From the IMG/VR virus record IMGVR_UViG_3300032242_000965, positions 24,101-88,100 of that record: 64,000 nucleotides of DNA; one strand, 5' to 3'. The number at the start of each line of letters is the position of its first letter. Within the stretch, counting starts at the first letter, position 1. Origin of the DNA: a virus. This document shows, piece after piece, positions 30,306 through 64,000 of the stretch. The notes beneath the pieces were generated by a model that was not told the origin of the DNA, did not search any database, and saw only the letters and a list, made by a program, of their open reading frames with translations. A program made the position numbers and the translations under genes.

Positions 30306-30306
30306 G

Positions 30307-30314
30307 TATTTAAT
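30307..30314 (-). promoter_or_regulatory. Candidate late-type promoter for the tmRNA gene, ATTAAATA
   Basis: The minus strand has ATTAAATA (6 of 8 to TATAAATA), overlapping the stop of the methyltransferase gene. Initiation 6-7 bases downstream would fall near 30300, exactly where the P2 strand of the acceptor piece begins. A sigma70 reading (TTTACA, 17 bases, TTAAAT) is an alternative. Confidence 0.4.
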
Positions 30315-43354: not shown

Positions 43355-44584
43355 TTATTTGATAACGACTATAGCTAATAATAATTCTTCTGGTTCGATG
43401 TTTTTATGCTCCAATGCACGACCGATAGTGTTAAACATAGTTGCTTCACCTGGTTTAGCAGCACGTGCTAATCCATTACCTGCACTTACTAATCTCTGAC
43501 CCTTAACTACTTTACCGATAGTTTTAACTTTAACACGACCGGTTAATGCAATCGCCGGATGAGTTTCATCTGTACCTGCAGGACCATTCATTAAGTATGC
43601 AGCAGTATTACTAACAACACCAAATACGTTCTCGCTTAATTCATCAACTACTTTAGTAACTTCAGCGATACCGCCGATTTCAACGACCGTACCTGGATCA
43701 TATGTAGCATCAGCGTGGAAGCGTTCTGCTAAGTCAGCGTATGTTGCTTGAATTTGTGCACCATTAACTAATGTCCATGTACCTGAAATATCGCCGCCTC
43801 CAATTAAATGCGGTGTTGTAATTGAATTTACATTTAAGTCACCGTTAAATCTGCTAGGATACTGACCATTAGTCGGTGGATTACCACCATTCAAGTATCT
43901 ATATACGTTATCATTTGTATAGGTTCCACTTGGTGTATACGGCTGACCATTTGCATACATATACTTGTCACATCTGATACCATTTGTACTGTTTTGAGTA
44001 AATGAGATATTACCTGATTGAACTGAGAATGCGTTCCCACCTGGATTACCATAAGCACTCCATTCACCTGTTAAGTTACCTGAAGTACCACGTGAACCTG
44101 TAGTAATTACTTGTGTAGTTAAATTTGTAATGCTACCAGTAGTAAAAGTTGCTGAGGTTGCAGTAAATGTTTCAATTGTACCTAATCTAATTGAAAGTGT
44201 ATCGCCGGTGATAGCATGTGTTGATGATAAATTATTTGTTGTTACATTACCGGTAACAGTAAGATTACCCAATGTAGTAGTACCACCGCTGTTCGTACTT
44301 GCTAATGTCAACCATGCTACTGGATTAGTTGTGTTATCTGCAGGGCATACATTCAATGTACTTAACGTAGTATTGTACCACAACTGACCCTTTATTGGGT
44401 TTGGAGGAGGAACATCTGCTGCAAAATTCTCTGTAATTCTTACAAAGTTTGTATTGATTGCTTGTCCGTAGCCTGCATAGTTTCTACCGGGTAGACTCAA
44501 TGAAGTACTAACGCTATTGATGGTACCATCTTGTACTGTAGTAAGAGTGTTACCGTTGCTTCTTATAATTGTATATCCTGCCAT
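43355..44584 (-). CDS. Tail fibre protein with Peptidase_G2-like C-terminal region
   Basis: 409 residues. The N-terminal part (RNYAGYGQAINTNFVRITENF; PIKGQLWYNTTLSTLNV) is a common phage fibre attachment motif. A short NVTGN beta shaft follows. The last ~130 residues (ATYADLAERFHADATYDPGTVV and onward) resemble the self-cleaving or chaperone-like tail domain often called Peptidase_G2; cleavage here is not shown. A GGAGA ribosome site and a late octamer 21 bases upstream give a normal leader. Confidence 0.75.
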   Translation of the reverse strand: MAGYTIIRSNGNTLTTVQDGTINSVSTSLSLPGRNYAGYGQAINTNFVRITENFAADVPPPNPIKGQLWYNTTLSTLNVCPADNTTNPVAWLTLASTNSGGTTTLGNLTVTGNVTTNNLSSTHAITGDTLSIRLGTIETFTATSATFTTGSITNLTTQVITTGSRGTSGNLTGEWSAYGNPGGNAFSVQSGNISFTQNSTNGIRCDKYMYANGQPYTPSGTYTNDNVYRYLNGGNPPTNGQYPSRFNGDLNVNSITTPHLIGGGDISGTWTLVNGAQIQATYADLAERFHADATYDPGTVVEIGGIAEVTKVVDELSENVFGVVSNTAAYLMNGPAGTDETHPAIALTGRVKVKTIGKVVKGQRLVSAGNGLARAAKPGEATMFNTIGRALEHKNIEPEELLLAIVVIK

Positions 44585-44613: not shown

Positions 44614-45234
44614 TTAAATTGTCACCAAGTTCGTTAGACTCTGTATTCTGATTGTATAGTCTACTTGAATTTGTCTGTTTAAACTTTTCTGTACAGGGTG
44701 AAAAATTACATGAGTTATTAACTTTGTTAATTCATTTCCCGCATCATCCGTTCCGTAATTTGCTAATAGTCCAAGTTCGTCAAATACGAAAGAACTATCC
44801 ATTGATGTACCGTTATCAAATGCATATTGACCAGTGGGCTCACCATAATCTAATAAACATTGAATAACTATATCTGTATAAACCTTACCAGTAGAATGGT
44901 TCACACTCATTTTATTTTTAATTGGATTACTATTCAAAATACTAGTATCATCAATAATCTTTGCGTATGTTTGATTATATAAACTAGCATTCTGTCCAGT
45001 TGTATTAGTTGGGAGATACGTAATAATACCTGTTTGGTCTACGCTACTACCACCATTACCTAATGCTAATCTAAAAATATTTCCTACTCCTCTACTACTC
45101 AAACTATCTGCAATTGCGATACTTATATTTTCATAATGTATAGCATTACTTCCGTCAAAAAAGACTTCATTGGTGTTTGGGTCATAGACTTTTAAAAATC
45201 CACGAATTTCTACTGGAATGTTAACATTTGACAT
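44614..45234 (-). CDS. Conserved phage structural protein
   Basis: 206 residues, beta-rich. It begins MSNVNIPVEIRGFLKVYDPN and has SSRGVGNIFRLALGNGGS and a C-terminal DYTIRIQSLTNL. The preceding 51-residue protein ends with a related string (ISDPNTKEILVQIRGDY). Its ATG overlaps the upstream stop (TAATG). Probably part of the tail or baseplate; not further identified. Confidence 0.7.
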   Translation of the reverse strand: MSNVNIPVEIRGFLKVYDPNTNEVFFDGSNAIHYENISIAIADSLSSRGVGNIFRLALGNGGSSVDQTGIITYLPTNTTGQNASLYNQTYAKIIDDTSILNSNPIKNKMSVNHSTGKVYTDIVIQCLLDYGEPTGQYAFDNGTSMDSSFVFDELGLLANYGTDDAGNELTKLITHVIFHPVQKSLNRQIQVDYTIRIQSLTNLVTI

Positions 45235-45403: not shown

Positions 45404-48400
45404 TTAATAATGTCCATATTGCAGAAATCTAGCAGCCGGGCTTGTACTAATCTGTAGAGGATCACCGAAATTGCTACTATAATTGATAGTATTCCAAACT
45501 TTTCCATAATACATTGGATCTAATACACGACTTGGGGTTAATCCATAAATCTCAGTATATTTTGAATTTAGTTGAATTACACCTGTACCCATAAGTCCTC
45601 TGGTCAATCCAGATAGTGTATTAGTAATCCTTACAGTACCTGTTCCAGTACCAATATGCATGGCTACAAATTTAATACCTAGTGTGTTACTTGGCGCCCC
45701 GATTAGCGTAAAATCAGTATTTCCTATTGTCTCAATAGTATATGTTGTACCAATCATAATATCAGTAACTTTTATTATAGGTTCAACCTGAGTAAAACGT
45801 ATTTTTTCTCCGTTTAACTCTAATATATTACCAACTGTTAATGTCACTAATAAATTTTGACTTAATGAAGCCTGCGAATTATCTACAAATACTAATGCTG
45901 GTCTACCATGTATAATTTCTAACACATATTTGGAACTATCTACATTACTACTTGAAGTTTGATTATATACAACAGTTTTCATAACTGAATTAATATTACA
46001 TTCAACATAAGCAAATATTGTCCCTGCAGTATCCATATCTACTATAGTAGTCTGGGTCACAGTATCTAGCAATTTACTCACATCATATACCTGTATAGAA
46101 GTATCGTTTGAGTTGAAGTCTTTGGTTAACCATGTTCCATCTCCGATATTTGTAAGGTAGACTGTTGATTTTCCATATTTGTCAATATCTATATTGAACA
46201 TCGAACTATTAGGAGTATCCCCATCAAGTGTTACTGTTATTAGTACGACATCATTTAAGTTTATGGTAGCATCGATGGTTAAATTATTTGAGTTATCATA
46301 ACTTAATTTATCCGACCCTATACGACTTCCATTAATAGTTACCCATGCCTTATTTACATCGGTATATAATATAGGATCCATATCTACGCCGTTAACGGGA
46401 TTACTAAATGGTTGCGGAATAGCAAATACGTTTTGATTTGCAGTAGCAACAACTTTCCTAGTTTGTATAAACAATCTATCAGTTTCATTGAACGTAGTAA
46501 CTGCAATAGTATCAGAAGTTATTGGACTTGTAGTTAATCTTAATTCGCCGGTACCAGAATCTATATAATAATCATTGTTTTGCATACCGAGTTTTGGAAC
46601 TAATCTTAATCCATTTTTCTCAACGATAGCATTAGCAATATTTAATTTACCTATGTTATTAGTAAGAACTATATTGTTAGAGGTACTATTGGTAAATGTC
46701 TGAGTCTCAGGAATACTATATGATAGTTCACCATAAGTATTTGCAGGTCTAAAATTACTTATACCAGTATCAAGTATTGTCCAAGTTATATAATCTGTAT
46801 CTTGATTATATAAAGTGTTGAACGTCAGTTTAGATAAATTAGTGTCTTCTATAAAGGTACAGTTGTAATCTGTTCGAAATGCCAACTTAACACCATTATG
46901 GTACACAACCGGTGGATTAACTAATGGTTGATAATATAAATTCAAATAAATTTCACTATGGTTAGTAGTTGAATTAGTTCTAAAAGGTATATGTTGTGAG
47001 TTTCCCCTAGCCAGTTGTTTGCCGTTTCCTACTTCATATACTTCTATCATTAATAGTTTGTTTGCAGGTAACGATGATGGGTTGAGAGGATCTAGTCCAT
47101 AATATGTGACTACTTTTGTAATCCAATTAATAGTATAGCCTGTGTATATTCTGTTGCCTAACTTAGTAGTGCTATCAATAATAAACACACTTACTTGTGC
47201 AGGATTTCTTAACAACCCATCAAAACTAACTGTACCAGTTGTACTAGTAACCGATTTCATTCCAAAGCTAGTATGCTGGAAGTATGCTTGTTGCGGGATG
47301 ACAGGAGTACTATCCCAATTTGATCCTGGCCCTGTCATTACCTTGATTGATAATGTTTCGGTGATGACCCCTGGTATTAATTCTTCTGGTCCGTAACCAT
47401 ATAAGAAATCATTTCCTGTTATAACACTATCTGGTTCTGCAGGTGTTAACATACTTATACTTGACCAAGTATTTGTATCTGAACTTCTTATGATAGTTGC
47501 ATTATCACCTACAATATAGTACCATGTGCCATCATGTGTAATATCATTCAATGTATCTACTGTCAATGAATTGTTTGTTTTATTAGACCAGGTAATACCA
47601 TCTGTACTAGTAATGATGGTCCCGTATTCTCCTACAAGTACAAATCTGCTATTTACATATGCGCCGGCTGTTAGATTACGTGTTACACCTGAAGAAGTTT
47701 GTACCCAGTTATGACCGTTTACACTATACCATACTGTTCCATTATTTCCTGCAATAACAATGATATTATCATTACTTACTACTGTGTTAATAGTTTCTAT
47801 GGTTATATAATCTTGTAATGTCCAAGTAACACCGTCTATACTTGTTATAACTATACTACAGGTAGTTACTTCCGGTGCGGCTGTACCAATACCTGACAAT
47901 ATTCTATTACCGCCACCAACTGCAATATATCCTTTGAATGCTTTGGTAGAAATCTCACTAATATTATAAATTATATTACGTGTTTTTGTACCAAAAGTAT
48001 ATTGCTTATTCCAAACAATTCCCTCAGCACTACGTGTAATAAACGATCCTACACCATAATAATATCCATCACTGCCTTGTATTATTTTATTCACATTGTC
48101 AGCAGGATATGATTCTGCGCTACTATCAAATGCATCATCATCAAAACCTACTTGGTCTAGTAATGTTGATTGACCTTGTCCTAACCAATCTATACCATTG
48201 TAACTCAATAAGACTGGATTATGCGCGGTTAGTGTTGAAACCAAATACTTGTCTTTACCATAAATTATACTTGTTACATTTAATGAATGTTCTGCTAATA
48301 TATGGTTATGCCATGTCACTCCATCTATACTGGTCATTAATATTGACTTGTCTGCACTTTCTCCAATTGCTATATATTGGAATTTATATGCACTTGCAAT

Positions 48401-51400
48401 CTTAGTAGATTCATTATAGTTAGAGGTTAATGTAATATGTGAATCGTCAGTAACAACATCAACTATATACCCGAAACCGTTAATAGATAATTTTGTACCA
48501 TGTGCTAATTCTTTGTCAAATAATGTACCATTACCAACAACATTTTTACTACCATGTGTCAATAACAATGATCCAGTTATCAACACCTGATTATTATTAG
48601 TAATAATTCCCTTGATACTTAATGTTCTAGGATATAGTTCTTGACCTTTCAATGCCACATCAATCGGAATAATATCTTCTGGGCTGAAACTATTACCATA
48701 GTATACTGTACCAGGATAACTTATACCACTAACTAATTGTGGTAAGTCTTTTGCCGGCATATTGATAGCAGGTTGATAGTAAGCCACAATTCTGTCTAAT
48801 GCATTTATTGACCTATCGTCACTTTGTAATAATATCCATTTAGTTGAATCAAATACTGTATCGTTGTTGCTTTCAATACAACGCCAAACTCTATCAGCAT
48901 ATGATACTATAGAACTAGTATCATACTTATAACTTAATCCAAGCATGAATGGTTCTGGTATATATGCAAAATCTGATATGTTTGCAGTATCTGAATTATA
49001 GTCTAATAGCGTAGCATCTTCACCGGTTATTAGATTAATAGATGTATTATCTACTAGATTATTATTATGTTTATAATTGAATTCATCATATGTCACGGGC
49101 TTCTTCATACCTGGGTCATGGAACACTTGTACTTGTGTTTCATTTATAGGTTGAATATAATAAATATCAAACACTTTAGGGCTGACTCCGATTACTGAAA
49201 CTGATGATATTCCACCAACTATGTGTGCGCCACCGGATGCTGGATTACTAATTGTTTCTACAGTTATTTGTACATCATTAACTCCAGCAAGTCCGCCTAA
49301 TGCTGATCCGGATACATTTATCACTTCACCTACATAATGCTGTGTGCCACCGTCAATAATTTTAACAAAATATGTTTGTGTTACATCATATGGATTAAAT
49401 CTAGGTTTATGTATTTCAATTAATCCTCCGTTTCCATTAGGATTGGATACAGAGGTTGGATCTGAATTATGATAGAAATATGTTTTGGCACCTTGAATTT
49501 GTCCAGGATGTAATCTACTAGGTGTATAATCTAATCTTACTATTACATTATTAGAACTATCATATGTTACCCCGTGATCCACAGTAGGACCTGAAATGGT
49601 TTCTGACTTTATAGGTAGTACTGCACCTTGCAAACTAGCAAAATTACTATCTAAAGCAACACCTTCAACAGTAATATTTTGTATAGAGCCTGTGGTTGGT
49701 GCTGGGTGTAAAGTATTAGTTACAGCTGATGCACGTGTTACTTTACCTAAATATGCTTCAACAATATTAATAGTTAAATCATTTGTTGTAGTACTACCAC
49801 CCAGTCTGTCACCTGATATCATTACAGTATCACCGGTTACATAATTTGTGCCAGGATTACCAATATTAATTGTTGCAGTATATTTTGAAACTGCATATTT
49901 TGCAAAATATATACCATCATCACCGGTATAGTCACTAGCCAATGTCATTAGTACGTTACTACTAACAGTACCCACAGTTGCTAAAGTATGTAAATGAAGG
50001 ATAGGACTACCATCAGTATTAAATTTGTCCTGAATTCTTATAACAAACTCAGGTAATACTTCAGTAAAGTTAGTACCTTCACATGTATGCTTAATACTAG
50101 TATCCGTGATTGTTTGGCTTACACTAATAGTACACTTAGATATATAACTAACACCTGATTTAGTACCAGGAACGTTTATATAATCGGTAATTATATAAGG
50201 TGTTACTCCACTAGCCGCAGTACTTGTAACATAAGCACCTATTTCTATAGTCCCTGAGGTTAGTTCTATTACATATAAATCTGTGCCATCAATAAAACAT
50301 TTGAACTCACAAGCAGATGCACCAGTCACTACATTACTACCTTTTGTAAGTATTAATACTTTACCTATGAAATCCTGGCTAGTTGTACTAACTGTCACAT
50401 TAAATCCTGCACCAGTGCCTACTCCACTAGTAGTATCTTGATTTAAGGGACCATAAGAAGTTGATACACTATCTACTACTATAAAGCAGTTATTTGTTCC
50501 TGTAATACCAGATAGTGTTGCACCAGGCACAGTAATTGTATCAAATACTTTATAGTTTTGTCCCCCGTCGGTAAGTTTTGCATTGTAACTTCCACCCAAC
50601 AATACATTAGTTACTGTGAGCTTTGCACCTGTTCCTACTGCACGACTAAAGATCCAATTAGAGTAGGTTCCAGATCCGTTAATAACATTAACATTAACCG
50701 TAATATTAGATCCATCGATGATGGTAATAATACCCTGTAAATTAATATTAGTGTTTGAGGTATAACTAATTTTTACTAACATCCCAACTTGATATGAACC
50801 GACTGTGTTAACCGCCCACGTTTGTAATGTAGTCTCTAAATGTATACTAGAACTTGAAGTTGTACCGGTATATCCTGAACCAGTGACTGCAACGGGGGTA
50901 GTTGAACCAGTAATATCAGTATACGGTCTTCCATGATATGCTACATCTACTGTTTCAGATATTGTTACATCACTACTGACTGCACTTATACCGAATTGAT
51001 TATACTTACTTCCCCAGAATTTATTAGGTTCCCACGGTACTATTTTTGAAACATAACTAGTTCTATCAAATCTTAATGTATTTGATATACCGCGAACATT
51101 TAGGTTGCTAGTGATTGCAATTGCACGTCCAGTTACACTGAATATGTATTCATTGCCGGTAAATACCTCAGTAATAGTACCTGCATGAAGTTTTATTCTA
51201 TCATGACCAATCAAACTAGCATTCAATGTTTTATGTAATGTTATTGATAGTAATTCAATATCTTCTATTTGTGCAATTACATATACATAATAGTAACCGT
51301 CTACGATAGATCCTTTACCGTTAACGCAAGATGATTTAATTAAGTCACCTGTTTGTAGATAAGTGCTAGGGACAATGATTGTATCATTAATAAAGTTAAG

Positions 51401-54400
51401 ATTGCTTTGTGCAAATTTTACATCATAACTACTAGTAAATCTAATTTCAGGAGTAACTGGATAATTCTCACCTGGATCTATTATATTGATAGATATAACT
51501 TTACCATCAGACATAACCGGTTCTAATACTGCTTCACGTGTTGGTGATGGATATATTGTAGTATCAATATGTGCAGTAATTTTGGGCGGGTCTATATAAC
51601 CTCTACCAGTTTCTAATACAACTACACCGGGTAGATCCATAGTAATAACTATACCTGGATAATGGTCTGATACATAAGAATTATTGATCCCTCTAGTTAA
51701 TCCTGACACCAATCCAGTGTCTCTATTAACAGTATTATATCCTATAATTTCACTATCAATATACAAGGTACCTGCGTCAGGCATACCTCTAGCATTATCT
51801 ATTAATAATGTATTACTAGTAGGTGTCATATATATTTTCAGTATACCTATCTCAAAGTTAGGTATATCTTTTAATGACAATCCATAATTACTATGCCAAT
51901 CAGTATAATTACTGTTGGTCCATATGCTATCTCCAATTGCATATTCATTCTTTGTATTGTTAGGATTTATAAAAGATAGTTGTGGACTTATAAATTTACC
52001 TGTTTTAGAATTATATATTGGATTAATATCAAAATCAGTCGTGTTTGAATATACATTATCAGTATGTGTATAACGCAAATCAAAATCTTTAATGACAGTA
52101 TGATATGGCTTAACTTCATTAATATAACCACTTAGAAGTGTTGTATTATCTACGTGGTAATTTACTTCTTGTTGCAAATCACGAACCGTATAAGTTACAT
52201 CTGCAAAACTAGTTTTATTTAACCATGGCAGATAGTTATTACCGCTTACATTTTCACTTTGTATATATTCAAACATCAGTATCAAACTCTTATTACGATG
52301 TTCTAATAGTGGACCAGTAAAGATTTGTTCATTTAATGCACGAATAATATAATATGTTTCTAGCGCAGGGAATGTATCGAAACTATCAGTGTCAAAGAAG
52401 TTGTCACCGAATCCAATCTTATTAGTTTGATAGTCCCATAATTTACTTGAGAACTGTATTGTTCCGTTTTGCAATCCTATACGTGTCCATGCACCGCTAG
52501 TGTATATGTATACTTCACGCTTTCCTTGACCGTTCTTAGCAACACCTACAATAAGTCCCTCTGTAGCAGTTAATTTGTATAAGTCTGCATACATACCAAC
52601 TTCAATTTTTGTTTTTGTCGTATCGTTATATCCAGTTGCCCACCAATAGATATTAGACCAATAACTACTAGTATCAAAATAATCACCCGACATGGCTAGA
52701 TATGTTAAATTACTAAACTCATTGATAGGATACTGAGCAAGAACTTTATTAGCATATCCTAAATAATTTTTTAATGCATTGAATCTATCAATAAACATAC
52801 TTTGTCTAGGTCTTACACCAATACCTGTTTGCATATAAGCAGGTAATGTATAGTTTGGAACACTAGAACCTATCAAGTCTACACCAGCAAAACTTTCTAA
52901 TAATCTATTATACAATCCTTCTGGACTATCATGTCCTAAACTATAGTTTGGTAAGCCTGGCAAGAAATCACTAGGATTATTATTTTGTATTAATTTGAAT
53001 TGATTCTGTATTACGGCTTCATTTGATCCAGAACCAAAACCTAAATGCATATTAGTATGCAAGCCGTTTATATAATCACGCACATTATACAATGCATAGG
53101 TATCACTACGTAATGGTGCCATGTATGAAATACCTGAATTTTGCGGACGAGTTATATATCTTTCTAGTATACTATCAGTTAATGTCTTATCACTATTATG
53201 TACTGCATTTGTATTTCTTACCCAGTAATAATAATTCTGTACTAGACTATTATTAGAATTAACTGCATATGTTGATGTATACTTTTGTAAATCGTATGGT
53301 GTTCCGGGTCCTGTATAGTTCACAGGAGTCACATCACTTTCTATCCAAGTATATACAGTTACATCACTACCAGGGAAAATTTGTCCCCAATACTTAGCGT
53401 TATATGCCAAATCATCCTGATGATAATTCAAGAACCTAGTAGTACTAGTATTGAACCATGTTTTACCAACTTGCTTGATACTCCAAATCATTGTACTAGA
53501 AACTGTAGTTCTATGATTATATCCGGCTGGGTCAGAGATTCCAATAAAGTCTAAATTCTCTCTTACCGCACCTAATAATTTACCACGTAACGGATCGATG
53601 TAATCTAAACTAACTAGATTTTCATCAGTAATGTTGTTATATAATTGAACTTTTTGAATCTTATCAATGTCAACTACATTTGTACTATTTCTATAGATAC
53701 TCCAGTTTGGTGATCCATATGCATTTTCATATACAGTAACTCTTCCACCAACTTGATCAGCTACAAAATTAGGACTACCTATTACAATAATGTTATCATT
53801 GAATGAAAGACTATTACCATACAAAGGCAATGCTCCATATACTGATATACTATCATTAACTGGTTGAGAATAAATGTATTCACCTGAGTTCAATAAACTT
53901 TCATTATATGGTTTGATATAATCATACATATAAGCCGCGCCTGCATTATAGAATACATCTTCAAATGTAGTAAGATTTAAATCAAACACAGTATTGTAAT
54001 GCATCTCGCTGCTTATCATATCAAAGAATGTACCAGCATAACGATCGGCTTTAGGTGCAGTAACTACAAAACTATTTTGTTCATTGAATGCCACTCTATA
54101 CCCAAACTGACTGTTATTCTGTACATGTGGTTCTCTGATAATTTGTGTCTTGGTATAAGGTGCTATACCCATTAGATAGAAGTAATTACCATTAAATGCG
54201 GTTATGTTAAGTTTATTATTATCAGCACCTAACTCAACACTTAACAAACGAATAACCAATCTGTCATCTTCAGTTACATATGCAAATATGTTCGGTACTT
54301 TAGTGAGATTAATTGCATTTGCAATTCCATATGCATCAAGACCATTAGTAAAATCTAGGAATACTGAATAACCATTAATAAACAAAATGGTTTTTGATAC

Positions 54401-57400
54401 TGATTGTCCACCTATAGTAATAGGTTGTAGATTAGCAACTATCTCGGCAGTTGCAAACCCATAACGTTTAGCTTCATTAGTAAAACGATATACTGCTCCG
54501 TTTTGACCTGGCTTAGTTTGGTCATATATTGCACCTACTATTACTTCACTACCGGTATTGTTGGTTGCTATGCTAGTTCCAAATTGTTGATTGGCTATTA
54601 CTCCGTCAATATTATCATAACTAGTCAATGATTGCATTAATACTAAACTAGGACTACTTACTGTGATAACATCACCTGCTTTAATACCTAATACTTTACT
54701 AAAGAATATTTCTGGGATCTGACCTGCATATCTAACATTATAGAATGTCTTTGACAATGGCTTACCGTTAAGAGAAATTCTAGTATGATCCATTAAGAAG
54801 TTATCTAATGGCCAAGGTAATGCAATTACTAATATATCTGGGTTATAGTCTAACTTGAATGTTTCAATTAATCTATCAAACGCCCAAACAATACCAACAT
54901 TAGGTGAGGGAGGAATAGTTTCATTATCTACTAATCTAACATGGTATGTAGGTGAACCAATGAATATCTTACTTGCATCATAATTAACAGCGATGCTTGC
55001 ACCAAAGTTATCATTGCTTTGGTACAATACTGTTTTCCATGCAATTGATGCCATTACAGGATCACTACTAGTTGGTCCGTTATAATTACTATCTAGTGTA
55101 ATAGTTTTTGTTGTAGTTCCAGTTATATTAGCTATAGTAAATGTATCATAATCTTCAGTATTAGTATTGTAAATTGTAATTGTGCCACCTTTCATATCAG
55201 ATATGATAGATAGTGAAAATGTTGCATCCAATGTTACAGCACTACTACCGTTAGTTACTGATACTAAAACTTCTCTAGGATTCTTCAAATCACCTGGGTT
55301 TTTACCTAAATAATAAGTGTCAAATGATGACATATTAATAGGTCCCATAAAGTTAAACTGGTTATTAACAGTGGCAATGAATATATTGTTAGATGCAATT
55401 ACATCACCGTTATTTAAATCTATTTCTTGTAAGTATGAAGATCCGTGATTTATATTTTTATTATCTATGAAATCATTTCTAATTCCAGCCAATTGATTAA
55501 TACTAAGACTATATCCTATACGTTCAACTGTATGTATTACTGTTTTATCTATAGTAGTAGTAACTATAATTTCTGAATCTTTAGCAGGAGCAACATCTAA
55601 TATAATCTTGTCTTTTACTAATTGATAATTAAATATGTTAGACCATATAATTTTTGCATTGATTGGGCTGGTTGTGGTGTTGCCCTTAAAATTACTGTCC
55701 AATGTTATAATTTTTGTTGGATTAGAAGCATCTATATCAGCGATAATAAAGGTATCATACTTGTATGTATTGTCATTATAAATTACAATCTTTCCACCTA
55801 TCATGCTAGTAGTAACTGCAATGTTGATTGTGGTTACTATATTACTATCGTTAGTTGCTGATATTAATATAGTTATTGGTGCAGACACTTGGATGTTGCT
55901 GTAATTTTTTGCAAGGTGTCCATAGTTACTATTGGGAATAGCAATATCAATTTTATTTCGCACTACTCCGGTTGGATCAGTAGAAGTCAAATCAAAGGTT
56001 GTTGTAGTACCATCACCAATTAAGGTATCTATAATAGTGTCAATATACTCGCTAGTTATTACAGTAACATAGTCAGGTAATAAGTTAGTATATGTCCATG
56101 CCGGAGTATTGACAGGGAAATATGGTTTAAATTCTAAATGAGTTGTTAGATATGTATAGTAGGTATCTAATGTCTTAAATAACAAATCATATGAAAGTGG
56201 ATTACAGTAATCATTGACATAAAACTTAGTAACATTTGTATTTAGGTCATATACATAGTTAGTCAATGTGACAAGATAATCTGTGTTATCATTAGTCGGG
56301 TCAATTGCTATATGTGTGCCAGGAGTTAATTCACCAGAAATTGAGAAATAATAGTTTCTACGTGTTGTGCCAAACGTTCTTAGTGACAGTTCAGGATTAG
56401 TAGTATCCAAGTCCTCAGCAGGTACATTATGTGCACCGTCATATGTCCATTGAATAGTTGCATTGATTGTTCCGGTAGGATCAGGATAATTGCTATCTAA
56501 TGTTATACTTTTAGTTGTAGTTCCAGTTATATTGGTTATATTAAAGGTATGACTTCCAATAGTAATTGTACTATAATTCTTCATGTCAGATATGACATCT
56601 GTGGAATTAGTAACTATTGTAGGAGAATATTGAGTTACACCTATTCTTAAATTAATTTTCTTTCCTTCAAACCCAAAACCTAATATTACAGAAGTATTAT
56701 ATTGTTTATATTGCAAGAATGTAATACGTTTGCCCTGTGGTATAGAATTTTTTGCGTTACCATCAACTACAAAGAATTTATCTAATGGATTTGTTGGTGC
56801 AGCAAGTTGTGATATTAATGGTGTATCTTGTTTATTACCTAATACTGGCAACAATGTATAATCAACTTGACGATGGAAGTAAAGTACGCTGTTAACTTTG
56901 GGTGCGCCTACAAACAAATAGTTGCTATCACCACTAAATGCCATACTAGTACCTGCATATGTACCGTTGACAGTTAATACTTGTTCTTCAACCAATGCCG
57001 CTACTTCTTGTAGTGATACAATTCTATAAACATATAATTTACTTACTGTGTCACTTGGCTGGCTTACAATCATAAATTCACTACTGCGAGCCATAGTAGT
57101 ACCAAAGCCTACATCTTTTGTGATAGTATCAATTCTAATAGTACCGATACCACTACGAATATATTTGTAGACTCTTCCTACTGGACCTAAATCAGGATCT
57201 ATATAGTTAGGATCACTTATGTAGTAACCCAATTGCGGTAGATATGCTACTGCACTACCTAATTTACCATTGTTGATGTTTGGTATTTCAAAGTTAACAT
57301 CATAGTAGTTAATATTCTTTTGATATACTGCCCAGTTATTAGTTGCGGTTTGGTCTACCCAAACTTTTGCAGTAGTATATTCAAAGTTTAATAATGGTAA

Positions 57401-60400
57401 AGTGTTTATCTTAGTAGGTGAACTTACTCTCATTGGCTGAAATCTATATATTAATACAGGATTATCAAACATAACTGTTGTTATATTTGATGCCAATGCC
57501 AAAGTAATAATTATAGATTTGTTATTTGATATTTGTTCTACTGTGTAAAAACCATTAATGATAGTATTAGTGTTTGTATCTTTATTGATAACAGCAATTG
57601 TATCATACTGTGATAATCCATGTGGTGTAGCGAAGTTTATTGTACATGTGTTATTCAAATTATTGACTAATGAAGTCATCATTAAGTCTAAACCTATAGG
57701 GGTATAGACATTCCAATCACCCTGTTTATCAGCAATCCAAATATAGTCATTCTTATAAATTAAATTTGTTACCAAATTACTAATACGTTCAACTGTATAT
57801 GAATATAATGTGATATCGTCCAAGTTAGCATACCCCGCACTTGGTAAACTAGTAATACTATTATCACCTATAGTAGGCAATACACTAGTAGTGTTTATTG
57901 TGCGACCGTAGTTTTTAATATTATATAATGGTACTTGTTGTTCTGCTATATCTACATTATTACCATTAATTAAACTTACGATTGCAGGATTACCTGTCAA
58001 TAGATTTTCATCTAATGTGAATTCTACAAAGTTATGATTTAGTACACCACCGTACTCACTATTCTTAATAGCCCAGTTTTCATTTATAGTATATGCTAAA
58101 TCATTATTCTGTATGGTAGCACCTTGGAAACTATTGATTATATCTAATGTTCCCTTTTCTGCAATCATATTTTTATAGATGTTAACTTGTGATATATCAT
58201 CTAGGTCGGCATCTGCTAGATAACTACGAGGTCTATAACCAATCAATGAGAAGCCTAACAAGTCACCGTCATTTTGAATATTACTTCTACGTGTATCATA
58301 GTAATATTCACTTTCACTTGCACGTGTATTTGGGTTAGCCAATATACCTGTATCAATCTTGTCATAACTAGTTAATGACCAGTCATTAAAATCAAACGTA
58401 TTAGTTGGAACGATAACTGTTTTATTAGCCATCCAGTATTTGCGCTTGTATATTACAATCGTACCTTTGGTATACTTTGTATTTTCTTTCCAATCAACTA
58501 CGTTGTTTTGATTTTGTATAAAGCCAGGTGCGTATAGTGTACCGTCCCATTGATTAGTCTTACTACCCTTAAGGTATAATCTTTGTTGACGCAACCCTGT
58601 AATTAAATTGTAAAGTACATCATTGAATACAGTTTCATTATCAAAAATAACGATATGTTCTGCAATACTAGTATCCGCACGTAGATAACTTATTGTATCT
58701 CCGTTAGTCAATATCTTCATCTTAAACGTTGTATCTTTACGATAGATAGCCAAATCATTTAAATTGACCGGTATTAGATTTTGATTTAATACAAAGTTAT
58801 TTTGAGTTAATGTGAATGGTTGAATAATTCCAATTGGTTTCTCAATATGGAATTTATTTGAACATGGATTCAAATTGATTACGCTTCCAACTTCCCATCC
58901 AGTCTGCACCCAATATAATACTTCTGCAATCATTTGATTCCAGTCTAGTACTGTATTATTTTCTACATCATCAAATATTACGCCCTGTGTTGTTAGATAA
59001 TTACCATAACTTGCTAGCAAGTTAGCCAAATCAGTTATATTTTTATATTCTGTACCATAACTAGTATATTGCACCTGAGTTGAGTATTCAGAGTATATAT
59101 TAACTTTAAGATTCAATACAGTTATTAACTTTTGTTTTGTAGTGTTAGTAGGTATACTTGAAATAAAATATGTTTTATTTTGACTATTACCGTATACTTT
59201 ATATCCATTGGTAGTCTTCTGTACTATAACTGAACTATAAACAATAGTATCATTTGGTTCATTTGTATATTGTAAGATAGTATAACTATCATCCGGTACT
59301 ATCAATGAACTATTAGTGCTATTAGGGGATCCTTTTTCTATATAAAAGTTTACTTTATTTTTATCTGTATATCCACTAACTCTATAACTTAATCTTACAT
59401 CTACATAGGTTATAGTATTAGCAACTTGTTGTGTACCAGGTAAGCCATATTGATTTAGATAGTCAATGATCCAATTCATATAACTATGAGCAGCACTATT
59501 GGCATCATTTCCATATAATTGAAGTTGTTGTCTACCCGTAGTTCTAAATCTATTGTAAACTAGATATTGATTAAACTCATAGTTATATTTGTATACATCT
59601 AAGTCTAGTCCTAATGTAAAGAATTGTGCTGGCTTTGCTAATGCAAATATACGCATTAGGTCAAATGGCCATGTACTACTCTTTCTATAACTATATTCAG
59701 CAGGACCCACGTCACCAATAACCCAATCATTGTTGAATGTTGTTTTATTGTAGTTACGTATTACTGATTCAAACGGGCTTAATAACTCGCCTCTACTATT
59801 AACTGGTAAAATACTTAATAAGTCAGGTCTTATATAATTTTTATCGATATATGACTCACCATTATTATATATGTAGCCGTTACTTAAATCAGTCCATAAC
59901 AATAGATTCTCACTAGTATATGGTCCTAATCCATAACGCTCGTCCCACCAAGTTGGCTTAACTGGTAACCCTAGCATTTCCCAAGGAGTTGCATGAGGTG
60001 TTGCGGTGTCATAGAACCATAAATATATACCTCTCCAGTAACCCTGTTTAAGTGTAGTGTTGTCTAATTTGTTTTTAGCCTTACTATAATTCCATGTATA
60101 TTCATTAGTGCTGTCATAGTATTGGCTTGCAGTATCAATGCGATTTAATCCAACCCAGTTTAAGTAACTGGTTTTGTATAACTGCATTATCTGGTCGTAT
60201 GAATAATCAGTAGTTCTAAATTGTCCTGGGAATATATCTGCATATACTATTGGAGTTTTAGCATTTACTTTAATGTTATTATAAATTCTACATTCAAATT
60301 CAAATAGTACTTTGTCTCTAAAATCTATGATATTACCATAATCATCAAATGTATCATACATCTTTGTAAGACTACCATCATGACCTTTAATGAAGTAAGT

Positions 60401-63400
60401 TGGTTTTAAGTATGTCTCGTCTAATATAATTTCTGGAATAGAGACAGGATACAATCCTACTTTACTAGGAGTACTAGGTACAAAACTACCATATGTCTGA
60501 CTATATTCTTTAACAGTAACTGTATCACCATCATTAAGTTTGGCACTTAGTACTAAATATGGTGCATCAGGGTTGACAAAATAATCTACACCCTTCAACA
60601 TTAAATTGTTTTGCATTATACCATTAACAAGTCTTGAAGAATATACTAATACTGATTCATAATTAGCATTGTTAAAGTCATAGACTTTTGATAATGGATA
60701 TACCGTATTAGTTACTCCCACAGCAAATGTATATGTATTAGATATTGCTGGTGTTTTACTAGGTAACATGTCACTCCAAAAGAATGGACTAGATTGTGAT
60801 TTTGCACTAGTAATTATATCTAATGCATCATCTAATATATCACTTGCGCTATCATATGGTGTATAATCTTGTGAGTTTACTGTATTGATTAATAATGATT
60901 TGAATTTTACATACTCAGTAGCATTATAGTTTACTCCATTAAAGAAGTTTGCTTCTTGTCTACGTATAAATGCTGCCGCCGTAACCATTGTAGCACTATT
61001 TTGAATAATTCTAGTACCGTATGGTACAGGATTACCCAAGTCTCTATAGTTATTTGCACCAAATGATTGACCGGTCAGTCCAGGAATATTGTTACAAATA
61101 CTCTTATAGTGACCTCTAATGTCACCTGCATTTATAGTTGTAACTTGATAATTGAATGGGTTCTGTTGTAAATTGCTAGGTACCTGATAGTAACCTATAT
61201 TGCTTACAACATCACTATATGCCAATATAGTTATCAGGTCGCCGGCTGCTAGTGTTTGAGTAATAACGACAACGGTTTGAGTATTAGTTACTGTTGTAGT
61301 ATATGCATCAATTCTAGTGTTATTTACATATACTACACTAACTGGCCATGCTGTACTCGTACTATCTCTTAATGGTACATCTAATGTAAATGTGTTAGTT
61401 GTGTTAATATTTGTATATGTATAATCAAATACTTGATATTGAAAACTAGTATCAACTGCGGTTTCCCAACCTAATTTTCTAACATAATTTGTTTTATTTG
61501 TATACTGATAGACATAACCGTAATTTACAGGTTCATTGATACTTTGTCCATTGGATACATAGTTGAACGATTGGCTGTTTAACGTAGACTCAAAGTTAAT
61601 ATCATTTAGATTACCCACACCGCTATATTGAATCGGTATTCCTAACACCGTGTCTTTAACACCTGATCCTACGCTATATTGAAATAATGTACAACCTTTA
61701 AAATCAGTACCTGGATAATAATTACCATCGCCTAAACTTATACCATTACTATCAAACAAATCAAACAACGGTGCTTGATTAACAGTAGTTTTAGTTTGAC
61801 TATTAACCCATCCGTCTACGCTATCATAATAATAATTATAACCTTTATTAGTAACTCCATTAACAATAATAACTTGGTCACCTGAGGTTACATCACCGTC
61901 GCTTGCTTTGGTTAATGTAATAACTCTACTACCATTAACTGTTGCAATATTGGCTACAAAAATTTTATTTACGACTTCTGGATTTCTATCTTTTGCAAAT
62001 ATAATTCTACATCCATCGAATAAACTTGAATTTTCGCCATCAGGCAAATATATATTAGGATCAATACCTGCTATAGTGTTTAGTGCATCTGTGTTAACTG
62101 TATCAATATAATCAACTGGTGTTTTACCAAAAGTACCATGATATATTAACTTTAAGTTTGGATAAAATTCAATAATAGGACGTGATGCTCTATTAGTTCC
62201 AGTAGTCAGTGCTTTGTTAACAATTGGACTTAATAGATTATTCTCTGATATTGTTTTTAGTACATCAACATGGAACCAGCGATTACCCCTAGTCCAACCA
62301 TTTCTATCGATACTATTACGACTAATTGTAATATAGTCAGGTGTATATGGTAGATTAATTACATCGCCAAACCCTACTTGGTCAAATCCACTTGCAGGAT
62401 CATCAAACGGGGCACTAAATTCCTGACTATATAATTCTGGTACAATTAATTCGCTACTGGGTATTAACTGTATACTTGTTCCAACACCTTCTACATAATA
62501 AGTATCGTGTAGATATTTTGTTGGGAATACTCTTCCGACAAATTTTACTCTTAATCCATTTGAAAATTTTATTCCATTTGGGCTTGTATATGCTTTTTGT
62601 CCAATAATATCAAGTACATCGATAACTGCTGAGACTGTATCATCTATAAGTTTAATCTTACCAAACTTAAGTGAGTTTCCCTCATCCTGATAATATAGTG
62701 TACTGATTGCAGAAGTATTTGATGGGATTAGTGATATCTCCCCATAACTATTCTTAACAAATTTTCTGTCTATATATTCTGTTCCGGCAGCAATAACTAT
62801 TGTAGTATTATCAGCAATAGGCATTAATGGTACTAATTTAATAACTGGATCAAATTGATCTCCAACTAATGTTATCTTAAATATAGTACTAGTTATTGGT
62901 TCTCTTATGAAGTTTTCAAAATTAACAGTATCAAAGTTATCACTATCAAAAAAATCACTAATTATTGCTCTTTCATTAGGATTAGTGCCATAGAACAATA
63001 ACGTTTTATCTGCAACATTAATTACACCGTCAATATTCTTAATATCATATAAACGTCTTCCGTGTACGTTGTCAAAACTCAATGTTGTTACTAAATCAAT
63101 AGGAACACGACCTGGATAATTATTATCATCTTCTGCATTGCTTGTAGGAACATTATAAGTAAATGTACCTGAACTGACACCGTTAAATTCTATGCCATTA
63201 ATTTCTCTTGTGCTGAAGTTTTTTCTATTTGGATCAACACCGTCCATACCTGGCAATGATTGTATATAAAATTTACTTTTTTCATCAACTTGAAACGTAT
63301 ATGTACCACCACGAACTAGTGTCAATGTTGGGTTCTCTGTTGGGAGTAATGATCCATTTACTTCAAATTGATATGAATTAACATTGGAAATAACTTTAAT

Positions 63401-63868
63401 AGTTGCTTCTTGTAATACGCTTGTAGTTGTAATGTCAACACTTTCAGGACCTTCTGGAATCCAATAGTATTGACCAAAGTTGATTAGTTTATCTAAGTCA
63501 ACAAAACTATCCCAACTATAGAATTCATTTTTAAATAAACTATTATGATTAGGTGTTAATCCGCTTTCTAATTTAATAGCGTCAATGATTCCCGGATATG
63601 TAATAGCATCGGTTACTTTGCCTGTTACAGGATCAGTAAACACTACAGTAGGTTCTAATTGATAGTTTCTTTTATCAACTGTTGGTTCTTCTACATACTG
63701 ATCGGTTGTTTTTACACCATAACCAAACTTACTGCCAATATAACCTTGTACTTTTCTAAAGTCTGGTGGTTGAACTAATTGGTCTAATGTCGCAGATAAA
63801 AACTGGTCGTTAGTGTTTGTTTGAAATATTTCTGGTAAGAAATCAATGGTTCTTATTCTTGTTGCCAT
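45404..63868 (-). CDS. Giant tail/virion protein of 6154 residues
   Basis: One uninterrupted frame of 18.5 kb, among the longest phage genes I know of. The N-terminus (MATRIRTIDFLPEIFQTNTN; NSLFKNEFYSWDSFVDLDKL; INFGQYYWIPEGP) looks like a fixed attachment region. FG-GAP-like strands recur between about residues 2250 and 3370 (FGASIAVNYDASKIFIGSPT, FGTSIATNNTGSEVIVGA, FGYRVAFNEQNSFVVTAP). A ~60-residue module ending ITLDSN-Y occurs three times near 2450, 2720 and 2920. Between about 5330 and 5470 are Ycf48/BNR-like blades (SIDGVTWTLQDY, STDGITWSNKTN). SGLTRGxx occurs twice. No protease, lysozyme or membrane motif was seen. Probably a fibre or tail-surface scaffold made of beta-propellers. Confidence 0.8.
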   Translation of the reverse strand: MATRIRTIDFLPEIFQTNTNDQFLSATLDQLVQPPDFRKVQGYIGSKFGYGVKTTDQYVEEPTVDKRNYQLEPTVVFTDPVTGKVTDAITYPGIIDAIKLESGLTPNHNSLFKNEFYSWDSFVDLDKLINFGQYYWIPEGPESVDITTTSVLQEATIKVISNVNSYQFEVNGSLLPTENPTLTLVRGGTYTFQVDEKSKFYIQSLPGMDGVDPNRKNFSTREINGIEFNGVSSGTFTYNVPTSNAEDDNNYPGRVPIDLVTTLSFDNVHGRRLYDIKNIDGVINVADKTLLFYGTNPNERAIISDFFDSDNFDTVNFENFIREPITSTIFKITLVGDQFDPVIKLVPLMPIADNTTIVIAAGTEYIDRKFVKNSYGEISLIPSNTSAISTLYYQDEGNSLKFGKIKLIDDTVSAVIDVLDIIGQKAYTSPNGIKFSNGLRVKFVGRVFPTKYLHDTYYVEGVGTSIQLIPSSELIVPELYSQEFSAPFDDPASGFDQVGFGDVINLPYTPDYITISRNSIDRNGWTRGNRWFHVDVLKTISENNLLSPIVNKALTTGTNRASRPIIEFYPNLKLIYHGTFGKTPVDYIDTVNTDALNTIAGIDPNIYLPDGENSSLFDGCRIIFAKDRNPEVVNKIFVANIATVNGSRVITLTKASDGDVTSGDQVIIVNGVTNKGYNYYYDSVDGWVNSQTKTTVNQAPLFDLFDSNGISLGDGNYYPGTDFKGCTLFQYSVGSGVKDTVLGIPIQYSGVGNLNDINFESTLNSQSFNYVSNGQSINEPVNYGYVYQYTNKTNYVRKLGWETAVDTSFQYQVFDYTYTNINTTNTFTLDVPLRDSTSTAWPVSVVYVNNTRIDAYTTTVTNTQTVVVITQTLAAGDLITILAYSDVVSNIGYYQVPSNLQQNPFNYQVTTINAGDIRGHYKSICNNIPGLTGQSFGANNYRDLGNPVPYGTRIIQNSATMVTAAAFIRRQEANFFNGVNYNATEYVKFKSLLINTVNSQDYTPYDSASDILDDALDIITSAKSQSSPFFWSDMLPSKTPAISNTYTFAVGVTNTVYPLSKVYDFNNANYESVLVYSSRLVNGIMQNNLMLKGVDYFVNPDAPYLVLSAKLNDGDTVTVKEYSQTYGSFVPSTPSKVGLYPVSIPEIILDETYLKPTYFIKGHDGSLTKMYDTFDDYGNIIDFRDKVLFEFECRIYNNIKVNAKTPIVYADIFPGQFRTTDYSYDQIMQLYKTSYLNWVGLNRIDTASQYYDSTNEYTWNYSKAKNKLDNTTLKQGYWRGIYLWFYDTATPHATPWEMLGLPVKPTWWDERYGLGPYTSENLLLWTDLSNGYIYNNGESYIDKNYIRPDLLSILPVNSRGELLSPFESVIRNYNKTTFNNDWVIGDVGPAEYSYRKSSTWPFDLMRIFALAKPAQFFTLGLDLDVYKYNYEFNQYLVYNRFRTTGRQQLQLYGNDANSAAHSYMNWIIDYLNQYGLPGTQQVANTITYVDVRLSYRVSGYTDKNKVNFYIEKGSPNSTNSSLIVPDDSYTILQYTNEPNDTIVYSSVIVQKTTNGYKVYGNSQNKTYFISSIPTNTTKQKLITVLNLKVNIYSEYSTQVQYTSYGTEYKNITDLANLLASYGNYLTTQGVIFDDVENNTVLDWNQMIAEVLYWVQTGWEVGSVINLNPCSNKFHIEKPIGIIQPFTLTQNNFVLNQNLIPVNLNDLAIYRKDTTFKMKILTNGDTISYLRADTSIAEHIVIFDNETVFNDVLYNLITGLRQQRLYLKGSKTNQWDGTLYAPGFIQNQNNVVDWKENTKYTKGTIVIYKRKYWMANKTVIVPTNTFDFNDWSLTSYDKIDTGILANPNTRASESEYYYDTRRSNIQNDGDLLGFSLIGYRPRSYLADADLDDISQVNIYKNMIAEKGTLDIINSFQGATIQNNDLAYTINENWAIKNSEYGGVLNHNFVEFTLDENLLTGNPAIVSLINGNNVDIAEQQVPLYNIKNYGRTINTTSVLPTIGDNSITSLPSAGYANLDDITLYSYTVERISNLVTNLIYKNDYIWIADKQGDWNVYTPIGLDLMMTSLVNNLNNTCTINFATPHGLSQYDTIAVINKDTNTNTIINGFYTVEQISNNKSIIITLALASNITTVMFDNPVLIYRFQPMRVSSPTKINTLPLLNFEYTTAKVWVDQTATNNWAVYQKNINYYDVNFEIPNINNGKLGSAVAYLPQLGYYISDPNYIDPDLGPVGRVYKYIRSGIGTIRIDTITKDVGFGTTMARSSEFMIVSQPSDTVSKLYVYRIVSLQEVAALVEEQVLTVNGTYAGTSMAFSGDSNYLFVGAPKVNSVLYFHRQVDYTLLPVLGNKQDTPLISQLAAPTNPLDKFFVVDGNAKNSIPQGKRITFLQYKQYNTSVILGFGFEGKKINLRIGVTQYSPTIVTNSTDVISDMKNYSTITIGSHTFNITNITGTTTKSITLDSNYPDPTGTINATIQWTYDGAHNVPAEDLDTTNPELSLRTFGTTRRNYYFSISGELTPGTHIAIDPTNDNTDYLVTLTNYVYDLNTNVTKFYVNDYCNPLSYDLLFKTLDTYYTYLTTHLEFKPYFPVNTPAWTYTNLLPDYVTVITSEYIDTIIDTLIGDGTTTTFDLTSTDPTGVVRNKIDIAIPNSNYGHLAKNYSNIQVSAPITILISATNDSNIVTTINIAVTTSMIGGKIVIYNDNTYKYDTFIIADIDASNPTKIITLDSNFKGNTTTSPINAKIIWSNIFNYQLVKDKIILDVAPAKDSEIIVTTTIDKTVIHTVERIGYSLSINQLAGIRNDFIDNKNINHGSSYLQEIDLNNGDVIASNNIFIATVNNQFNFMGPINMSSFDTYYLGKNPGDLKNPREVLVSVTNGSSAVTLDATFSLSIISDMKGGTITIYNTNTEDYDTFTIANITGTTTKTITLDSNYNGPTSSDPVMASIAWKTVLYQSNDNFGASIAVNYDASKIFIGSPTYHVRLVDNETIPPSPNVGIVWAFDRLIETFKLDYNPDILVIALPWPLDNFLMDHTRISLNGKPLSKTFYNVRYAGQIPEIFFSKVLGIKAGDVITVSSPSLVLMQSLTSYDNIDGVIANQQFGTSIATNNTGSEVIVGAIYDQTKPGQNGAVYRFTNEAKRYGFATAEIVANLQPITIGGQSVSKTILFINGYSVFLDFTNGLDAYGIANAINLTKVPNIFAYVTEDDRLVIRLLSVELGADNNKLNITAFNGNYFYLMGIAPYTKTQIIREPHVQNNSQFGYRVAFNEQNSFVVTAPKADRYAGTFFDMISSEMHYNTVFDLNLTTFEDVFYNAGAAYMYDYIKPYNESLLNSGEYIYSQPVNDSISVYGALPLYGNSLSFNDNIIVIGSPNFVADQVGGRVTVYENAYGSPNWSIYRNSTNVVDIDKIQKVQLYNNITDENLVSLDYIDPLRGKLLGAVRENLDFIGISDPAGYNHRTTVSSTMIWSIKQVGKTWFNTSTTRFLNYHQDDLAYNAKYWGQIFPGSDVTVYTWIESDVTPVNYTGPGTPYDLQKYTSTYAVNSNNSLVQNYYYWVRNTNAVHNSDKTLTDSILERYITRPQNSGISYMAPLRSDTYALYNVRDYINGLHTNMHLGFGSGSNEAVIQNQFKLIQNNNPSDFLPGLPNYSLGHDSPEGLYNRLLESFAGVDLIGSSVPNYTLPAYMQTGIGVRPRQSMFIDRFNALKNYLGYANKVLAQYPINEFSNLTYLAMSGDYFDTSSYWSNIYWWATGYNDTTKTKIEVGMYADLYKLTATEGLIVGVAKNGQGKREVYIYTSGAWTRIGLQNGTIQFSSKLWDYQTNKIGFGDNFFDTDSFDTFPALETYYIIRALNEQIFTGPLLEHRNKSLILMFEYIQSENVSGNNYLPWLNKTSFADVTYTVRDLQQEVNYHVDNTTLLSGYINEVKPYHTVIKDFDLRYTHTDNVYSNTTDFDINPIYNSKTGKFISPQLSFINPNNTKNEYAIGDSIWTNSNYTDWHSNYGLSLKDIPNFEIGILKIYMTPTSNTLLIDNARGMPDAGTLYIDSEIIGYNTVNRDTGLVSGLTRGINNSYVSDHYPGIVITMDLPGVVVLETGRGYIDPPKITAHIDTTIYPSPTREAVLEPVMSDGKVISINIIDPGENYPVTPEIRFTSSYDVKFAQSNLNFINDTIIVPSTYLQTGDLIKSSCVNGKGSIVDGYYYVYVIAQIEDIELLSITLHKTLNASLIGHDRIKLHAGTITEVFTGNEYIFSVTGRAIAITSNLNVRGISNTLRFDRTSYVSKIVPWEPNKFWGSKYNQFGISAVSSDVTISETVDVAYHGRPYTDITGSTTPVAVTGSGYTGTTSSSSIHLETTLQTWAVNTVGSYQVGMLVKISYTSNTNINLQGIITIIDGSNITVNVNVINGSGTYSNWIFSRAVGTGAKLTVTNVLLGGSYNAKLTDGGQNYKVFDTITVPGATLSGITGTNNCFIVVDSVSTSYGPLNQDTTSGVGTGAGFNVTVSTTSQDFIGKVLILTKGSNVVTGASACEFKCFIDGTDLYVIELTSGTIEIGAYVTSTAASGVTPYIITDYINVPGTKSGVSYISKCTISVSQTITDTSIKHTCEGTNFTEVLPEFVIRIQDKFNTDGSPILHLHTLATVGTVSSNVLMTLASDYTGDDGIYFAKYAVSKYTATINIGNPGTNYVTGDTVMISGDRLGGSTTTNDLTINIVEAYLGKVTRASAVTNTLHPAPTTGSIQNITVEGVALDSNFASLQGAVLPIKSETISGPTVDHGVTYDSSNNVIVRLDYTPSRLHPGQIQGAKTYFYHNSDPTSVSNPNGNGGLIEIHKPRFNPYDVTQTYFVKIIDGGTQHYVGEVINVSGSALGGLAGVNDVQITVETISNPASGGAHIVGGISSVSVIGVSPKVFDIYYIQPINETQVQVFHDPGMKKPVTYDEFNYKHNNNLVDNTSINLITGEDATLLDYNSDTANISDFAYIPEPFMLGLSYKYDTSSIVSYADRVWRCIESNNDTVFDSTKWILLQSDDRSINALDRIVAYYQPAINMPAKDLPQLVSGISYPGTVYYGNSFSPEDIIPIDVALKGQELYPRTLSIKGIITNNNQVLITGSLLLTHGSKNVVGNGTLFDKELAHGTKLSINGFGYIVDVVTDDSHITLTSNYNESTKIASAYKFQYIAIGESADKSILMTSIDGVTWHNHILAEHSLNVTSIIYGKDKYLVSTLTAHNPVLLSYNGIDWLGQGQSTLLDQVGFDDDAFDSSAESYPADNVNKIIQGSDGYYYGVGSFITRSAEGIVWNKQYTFGTKTRNIIYNISEISTKAFKGYIAVGGGNRILSGIGTAAPEVTTCSIVITSIDGVTWTLQDYITIETINTVVSNDNIIVIAGNNGTVWYSVNGHNWVQTSSGVTRNLTAGAYVNSRFVLVGEYGTIITSTDGITWSNKTNNSLTVDTLNDITHDGTWYYIVGDNATIIRSSDTNTWSSISMLTPAEPDSVITGNDFLYGYGPEELIPGVITETLSIKVMTGPGSNWDSTPVIPQQAYFQHTSFGMKSVTSTTGTVSFDGLLRNPAQVSVFIIDSTTKLGNRIYTGYTINWITKVVTYYGLDPLNPSSLPANKLLMIEVYEVGNGKQLARGNSQHIPFRTNSTTNHSEIYLNLYYQPLVNPPVVYHNGVKLAFRTDYNCTFIEDTNLSKLTFNTLYNQDTDYITWTILDTGISNFRPANTYGELSYSIPETQTFTNSTSNNIVLTNNIGKLNIANAIVEKNGLRLVPKLGMQNNDYYIDSGTGELRLTTSPITSDTIAVTTFNETDRLFIQTRKVVATANQNVFAIPQPFSNPVNGVDMDPILYTDVNKAWVTINGSRIGSDKLSYDNSNNLTIDATINLNDVVLITVTLDGDTPNSSMFNIDIDKYGKSTVYLTNIGDGTWLTKDFNSNDTSIQVYDVSKLLDTVTQTTIVDMDTAGTIFAYVECNINSVMKTVVYNQTSSSNVDSSKYVLEIIHGRPALVFVDNSQASLSQNLLVTLTVGNILELNGEKIRFTQVEPIIKVTDIMIGTTYTIETIGNTDFTLIGAPSNTLGIKFVAMHIGTGTGTVRITNTLSGLTRGLMGTGVIQLNSKYTEIYGLTPSRVLDPMYYGKVWNTINYSSNFGDPLQISTSPAARFLQYGHY

Positions 63869-63881
63869 TATCTGTGCCTGT

Positions 63882-64000
63882 TAAACTGAACTTGCGTTTG
63901 CACTACTTTGTAGTTGTGCAGGGGTTAATGCTGAAATTATTACTATATCTGTAGCCTGAGCGCAACTTACAAATATTTCATATGGTGCTGAACGAATTTC
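63882..64000 (-). CDS. C-terminal end of a further phage gene, N-terminus beyond the right edge
   Basis: The minus strand is open from the right edge to a TAA at 63882-63884, 13 bases before the giant gene's ATG. The visible ~39 residues (PYEIFVSCAQATDIVIISAL, ending in Ser/Ala/Asn) give no family. The closeness suggests that it lies in the same operon as the giant gene. Confidence 0.6.

Follow-up and report, generated by a model that had tools for sequence, protein, structure and literature searches.

A 6154-residue single-frame gene directly downstream of gp6 in a T4-related jumbo myophage and its proposed role as a baseplate arm

The locus and its reading frame

Of an IMG/VR record 88.1 kb long, the window analysed here covers the right-hand 64 kb, and a single gene of 18.5 kb takes up 28.9% of this window. 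This giant gene and its closest neighbours are arranged as follows:

63881..64000 (-): C-terminus of gp6 (baseplate wedge), of which the contig end leaves 39 codons and the stop
45404..63868 (-): giant gene, 6154 aa, defined by its open reading frame and by matches to phrog_10938
44614..45234 (-): next downstream gene, 206 aa, with a PHROG match to phrog_11259 (E 1e-63)
43355..44584 (-): gene of 409 aa, virion-structural-like, with a weak peptidase_G2-like C-terminus; possibly a tail-fibre gene

The giant gene runs from an ATG through 6154 codons in one frame, has its sole stop at the end, and encodes a protein of 683 kDa with a pI of 4.8. The remaining five frames across 45404-63868 contain 303 to 950 stops each, with open runs of at most 120 codons, and in 200 first-order Markov simulations with the same dinucleotide make-up the longest frame had a mean of 113 and a maximum of 201 codons. 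The uninterrupted 18.5-kb frame filling more than a quarter of the window, as announced in the preliminary description, was thus borne out. An IMG/VR scan with the first 800 residues of the giant returned 457 relatives, of which 80 were kept. All 20 longer relative contigs that were checked carry an open frame of 5284-6621 codons without internal stop, and each of the 18 relatives fetched whole, from separate IMG/VR contigs, encodes one protein of 5281-6617 aa. In a comparison with the nearest relative (L087, ~76% identical in the N-terminal block A described below), third codon positions vary most, dN/dS is ~0.07-0.18 in the conserved blocks A and B and up to 0.31 in the inserted stretches, and dN is ~0.41-0.44 in the inserts versus 0.12-0.20 in blocks A and B.

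Judging from these codon comparisons, the giant gene is under purifying selection over its full length. A stop or frameshift within it is very unlikely, because its relatives carry one uninterrupted frame, and an assembly fusion was ruled out by the 18 single-frame relatives on separate contigs together with a dN/dS of ~0.07-0.31 in every block. Although the gene starts 132 bases from the contig edge, the probability that it is an assembly or frame artefact is negligible in view of these two observations and of the single large genes that complete isolate genomes hold too.

Two more large proteins are encoded in the window, one of 1089 aa (3795-7064 (-)) and one of 908 aa (7083-9809 (-)); the former matches no PHROG and carries, at 5839-6063, 3.1 copies of a 72-bp tandem repeat. 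A phage-encoded permuted (two-piece) tmRNA is located at 29881-30349 (-) (Rfam RF04321, 109 bits with a cut-off of 47; RF01850 beta_tmRNA, 92.9 bits; ARAGORN tag AMPIA), and strong tmRNA copies are also present in the related contigs G014, G015 and G017. This tmRNA suggests a link to a betaproteobacterial host. Downstream of the giant gene lie a NodU/NolO-type carbamoyltransferase and two radical-SAM genes (35361-36836 (-), 37769-39190 (-) and 27012-27956 (-)); Phosso and Atu_ph07 likewise have several radical-SAM genes just downstream of their giants, and a sugar or peptide modification cassette beside the tail genes is possible.

Conserved blocks, propellers and inserts

The following features were distinguished along the protein, from its N-terminus to its C-terminus, with block boundaries taken from a 24-sequence alignment:

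63431..63868 (-): N-terminal segment, residues 1-146, present in all named jumbo-phage homologues (57 records)
56849..63868 (-): block A, residues 1-2340, conserved
53609..57451 (-): FG-GAP (integrin-type) beta-propeller, residues ~2140-3420, about seven blades by motif, with a large insert
55019..56851 (-): variable insert inside this propeller, residues ~2340-2950, from the alignment
56444..56626 (-): ITLDSN module 1, residues ~2415-2475
55643..55879 (-): ITLDSN module 2, residues ~2664-2742
55031..55276 (-): ITLDSN module 3, residues ~2865-2946
51269..53611 (-): core of block B, residues ~3420-4200, conserved (as far as ~3960 in the named jumbo phages)
49649..50911 (-): second variable stretch, residues ~4320-4740
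45407..49636 (-): block C, residues 4745-6154, conserved in close relatives
47399..48421 (-): YCF48/BNR-type propeller, residues ~5150-5490, with S-x-D/N-G-x-x-W repeats
45404..45751 (-): C-terminal end, whose LTRG motif recurs at the C-termini of the PA5oct, Phosso and Atu_ph07 homologues

Per 60-residue bin, identity in block A is mostly 30-65% among the 18 close relatives and ~25-29% in the named jumbo phages. The protein had been described as conserved at the N-terminus and modular in the remainder; the first part holds, while the second does so only in part, as residues ~2950-4300 (block B) and 4745-6154 are conserved too. Most of block C is missing from the named jumbo phages, and a search of viral contigs with this block gave no pattern match. 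Since the LTRG C-terminus is common to PA5oct, Phosso and Atu_ph07, the extra length of the giant is internal. The N-terminal block has no solved relatives by sequence. For its first 125 residues the structural model is of low confidence, with just weak cupredoxin/laccase-like fold matches and no convincing match to any solved baseplate protein.

The first propeller is recognised by Pfam FG-GAP_2, which scores above cut-off at residues ~3092-3127 and is present in 22 of 33 relatives (best E 3.4e-11). FG-GAP motifs extend from ~2150 to 3430 and flank the insert on both sides, so that this region is read as one propeller with an enlarged loop (~600 residues here). The insert measures ~610 aa in the window protein, ~440 in the nearest relative and roughly 17-260 in most others. 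An AlphaFold2 model of the matching region of a relative with a short insert (L042) has a pLDDT of ~90 over most of the propeller; its best Foldseek matches in the PDB are mostly propeller proteins, with low TM-scores and gapped alignments, and those in the viral library include the Atu_ph07 homologue and several FG-GAP/integrin-like proteins. As for the second propeller, the C-terminal block, used as a profile, finds solved Ycf48 structures (5ojp, E 9e-6; 5ojr, 2xbg and 5oj5, up to 4e-5), and residues ~5150-5490 match the C-terminal parts of cyanophage gp7 proteins more strongly (domain E 7e-20 and 1.4e-21).

Exact copies of ITLDSN occur three times (residues 2455, 2721 and 2923), each in a module of ~60-80 residues, and a degenerate copy is found at residue 5145. 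The modules are part of the variable insert in the first propeller and not blades. The FG-GAP-like, Ycf48/BNR-like and ~60-residue ITLDSN modules noticed at first reading were all recovered; of the several beta-propellers in series that they had suggested, two are supported, and the ITLDSN modules drop out as blades. Weak CBM_5_12 (chitin-binding type 3-like) matches were seen at residues ~1793-1813 (window ~58430-58492), in block C and in some relatives, and the annotation of one PA5oct-like homologue names a chitin-binding type-3 domain.

A known virion family in the gp7 slot

Pieces of the giant match phrog_10938 in PHROGs with E-values of 2e-70, 1e-90, 4e-47 and 5e-47, covering profile positions 20 to 2134 of 3324. 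By homology, it is a long member of this known family of virion structural proteins. Homologues were found by tblastn in 57 phage records, among them RaK2-like enterobacterial phages, PA5oct-like Pseudomonas phages, Atu_ph07, Phosso and SCTP-2. Family proteins of the RaK2/PA5oct/Atu_ph07-type jumbo phages measure 3313-4555 aa: RaK2 ORF070w (3326 aa), CBB_236 (3340 aa), SCTP-2 gp140 (3807 aa), PA5oct gp355 (3857 aa), Atu_ph07 gp180 (4449 aa), the Phosso protein (4555 aa) and a more distant member in XacN1 (3313 aa), found with profiles. Related contigs encode the T4-type major capsid protein Gp23, and the source is therefore taken to be a T4-related jumbo myophage. What the present clade contributes to this already known family is the C-terminal block, together with lengths of up to 6617 aa, the largest seen here. 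A literature search for descriptions of the largest phage proteins returned nothing useful.

Only 12 nt separate the gp6 stop from the ATG of the giant. The product of 63881..64000 is almost the same as the C-terminal end of the protein encoded just before the giant in the related contig L007; this L007 protein matches phrog_10646/phrog_219 (baseplate wedge subunit) and is preceded by a gp5-type hub/lysozyme protein and a gp25-type wedge subunit. A gp6-sized gene (1109-1132 aa) lies immediately upstream of the giant in 78 of the 80 relatives and is cut by the contig edge or split in the other two; across these 80, the gp25-gp6 order was judged by size and order, the families being assigned on L007. 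The order gp25-gp6-giant is also found in PA5oct, RaK2, CBB, Phosso, XacN1 and Atu_ph07. In SCTP-2 (locus L006, 24272-33562 (-)), a 3096-aa gene stands upstream of the giant where gp6 is expected. The place of the protein on the virion had initially been called unknown, which was too pessimistic: gp6 adjoins the giant directly upstream, and this points to the baseplate. On the other side, genes similar in size to the 206-aa phrog_11259 gene come after the giant or stand close to it in PA5oct, Phosso, Atu_ph07 and SCTP-2; in a search against protein families this 206-aa gene had no gp8 match.

In T4 the gene order is gp6-gp7-gp8, and the giant sits in the gp7 slot. Nevertheless, the comparison by hhalign of the gp7 core with the N-terminus of the giant gave a probability of 0.1% for T4 gp7 and 0.4% for cyanophage gp7, versus 96.8% (E 3e-10) for the control, the N-terminal segment of cyanophage gp7 against T4 gp7. 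A profile of cyanophage gp7-slot proteins finds T4 gp7 at 5e-8, and T4 gp7 profiles have no match in any of the 24 giants; searches by sequence thus gave no sign of T4 gp7 homology. A gp7-core model (KGT/LFK motif region) found nothing in the complete records of PA5oct, Phosso, Atu_ph07, RaK2, SCTP-2, XacN1 and CBB, nor in five related contigs. It does find gp7 in T4, V09, S-SSM7, S-8S55 and Melnitz, but all five are within the model, so the fair control of power is the cyanophage-T4 comparison. As far as these profiles can tell, the giant stands in the gp7 slot without a recognisable gp7 core, the defining trait of that family that was examined.

Cyanophages, too, have a giant gene next to gp6 on its downstream side, as in S-CAM3 (3045 aa), ACG-2014e (3495), S-H9-1 (3530), S-8S55 (3891), ACG-2014f (4225) and P-SSM2 (5195); on account of the last, a protein of more than 5000 residues beside gp6 is not unprecedented. 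A block B profile matches cyanophage gp7-slot proteins at several places, weakly and through a short repeated LTRG-type module, and for that reason these matches were not used as proof of common descent. One version of the baseplate reading set out below is that the giant is a true, highly diverged gp7 ortholog whose N-terminal segment is the gp7 core with its signal erased. Its slot is identical to that of gp7, the cyanophage slot proteins (3000-5200 aa) are core-recognisable gp7s that grew likewise, two of them sharing the YCF48-like propeller, and the seven complete jumbo genomes hold no other gp7 core; set against the hhalign results given above, this leaves orthology a tentative option. 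With similar reserve we put forward that throughout the RaK2/PA5oct/Atu_ph07-type lineage of T4-like jumbo phages gp7 may have given way to a giant of 3300-6600 residues, or have been remodelled into one until no longer recognisable; this giant would combine third wedge chain, outer arm and host-sensing surface in a single polypeptide.

Proposed role and comparison with known systems

As a whole, the locus is probably best explained by a wedge-anchored tail-baseplate arm, a phrog_10938 protein in the gp7 slot of a T4-related jumbo myophage. The wedges of contractile tails are assembled from (gp6)2-gp7 units to which spikes or fibres are attached; the gp7-type subunits anchor spikes and may pass the signal for contraction on to gp25 and the sheath (phage XM1, PMC10457771). 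In the proposed arrangement, the conserved N-terminal block would dock on gp6/gp25, replacing or containing the third wedge chain, as the slot suggests; with one giant per wedge and six wedges, a virion would carry about six copies. The FG-GAP propeller, block B and the C-terminal YCF48-like propeller would project outward as the arm, and the propellers and variable inserts would probably contact glycans or proteins of the host surface or, alternatively, hold the tail fibres encoded downstream. Landing would then be signalled to the wedge, upon which the sheath would contract. Propellers of the FG-GAP and YCF48-like types commonly bind ligands. Host contact fits the data because the inserts are the fastest-changing parts, and receptor binding by the giant is inferred from fold type and variability. 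The wedge role is argued from position because no gp7 core is detectable in the giant, and neighbouring genes are not always partners.

That the giant is a virion gene, as originally proposed, is sustained by homology, its homologues having been detected in virions by mass spectrometry: PA5oct gp355, whose record is marked ESI-MS/MS; phAPEC6 gp245 (381.88 kDa; 17 unique peptides), numbered next after the baseplate wedge gp244 (PMC7247149); and CBB_236 (21 unique peptides, 7.72% coverage; PMC5259590). The extreme size of the giant could point to a polyprotein that is split into several structural proteins as the virion matures; in some jumbo phages many virion proteins are reported to be cleaved by prohead proteases, as described for SPN3US. 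However, the homologous ends are kept in the window, PA5oct, Phosso and Atu_ph07, and the phAPEC6 proteome table gives the full predicted mass of the homologue, as an annotation value (PMC7247149), so that we regard processing of this kind as improbable.

It is also quite unlikely that, instead of being a baseplate part, the giant forms the long hair-like whiskers that RaK2-like phages bear on tail and head. CBB and phAPEC6 bear such hairs (~119 nm in CBB) without an assigned gene (PMC5259590, PMC7247149), a long beta-rich chain could build a filament of this type, and the homologues of the giant are virion proteins. Yet the gene is also present in GAP32 and in many phages without reported hairs; the authors of the CBB study sought hair genes among those absent from GAP32 (PMC5259590), and CBB_236 is annotated as similar to GAP32_230. 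Moreover, the gene belongs to the baseplate operon, and a simple filament is not what propellers would lead one to expect.

Few proteins of their phages reach the size of those in phrog_10938, whose annotation goes no further than "structural" or "hypothetical". The slot after gp6, with gp7 found nowhere, offers a concrete role for testing and suggests where much of the mass of the jumbo-phage baseplate may sit; the missing gp7 is the most interesting point of the locus. Both jumbo phages and cyanophages have enlarged the gp6-adjacent protein to thousands of residues with the same propeller type, and this suggests baseplate arms as a site of rapid host adaptation.

Among known systems, the YCF48/HCF136 propeller (5ojp, 2xbg) has BNR-like repeats as in residues ~5150-5490 of the giant; YCF48/HCF136 is a Photosystem II assembly factor, and the likeness, seen in sequence, is limited to the domain. 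T4 gp7 (baseplate wedge initiator, 1032 aa) shares the slot after gp6, but is six times smaller and has no detectable sequence relationship. The cyanophage gp7-slot giants resemble the window protein in lying directly after gp6 and in their modular growth to thousands of residues, and S-8S55 and S-SSM7 (with two genes of ~3000 aa) have a YCF48-like propeller near the C-terminus, as here; in contrast, they possess an N-terminal gp7 core and, where annotated, a following gp8 gene, neither of which is recognisable in the window. The named proteins of phrog_10938 share homology with the window protein across block A and a large part of block B, with the N-terminal segment in common; in most of their phages gp25-gp6 lie upstream of the giant, and the PA5oct, Phosso and Atu_ph07 homologues share the C-terminal LTRG region. 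Compared with these named homologues, the window protein is 1600-2800 aa longer, its extras being the ITLDSN-bearing propeller insert and, with the YCF48-like propeller in it, the greater part of block C.
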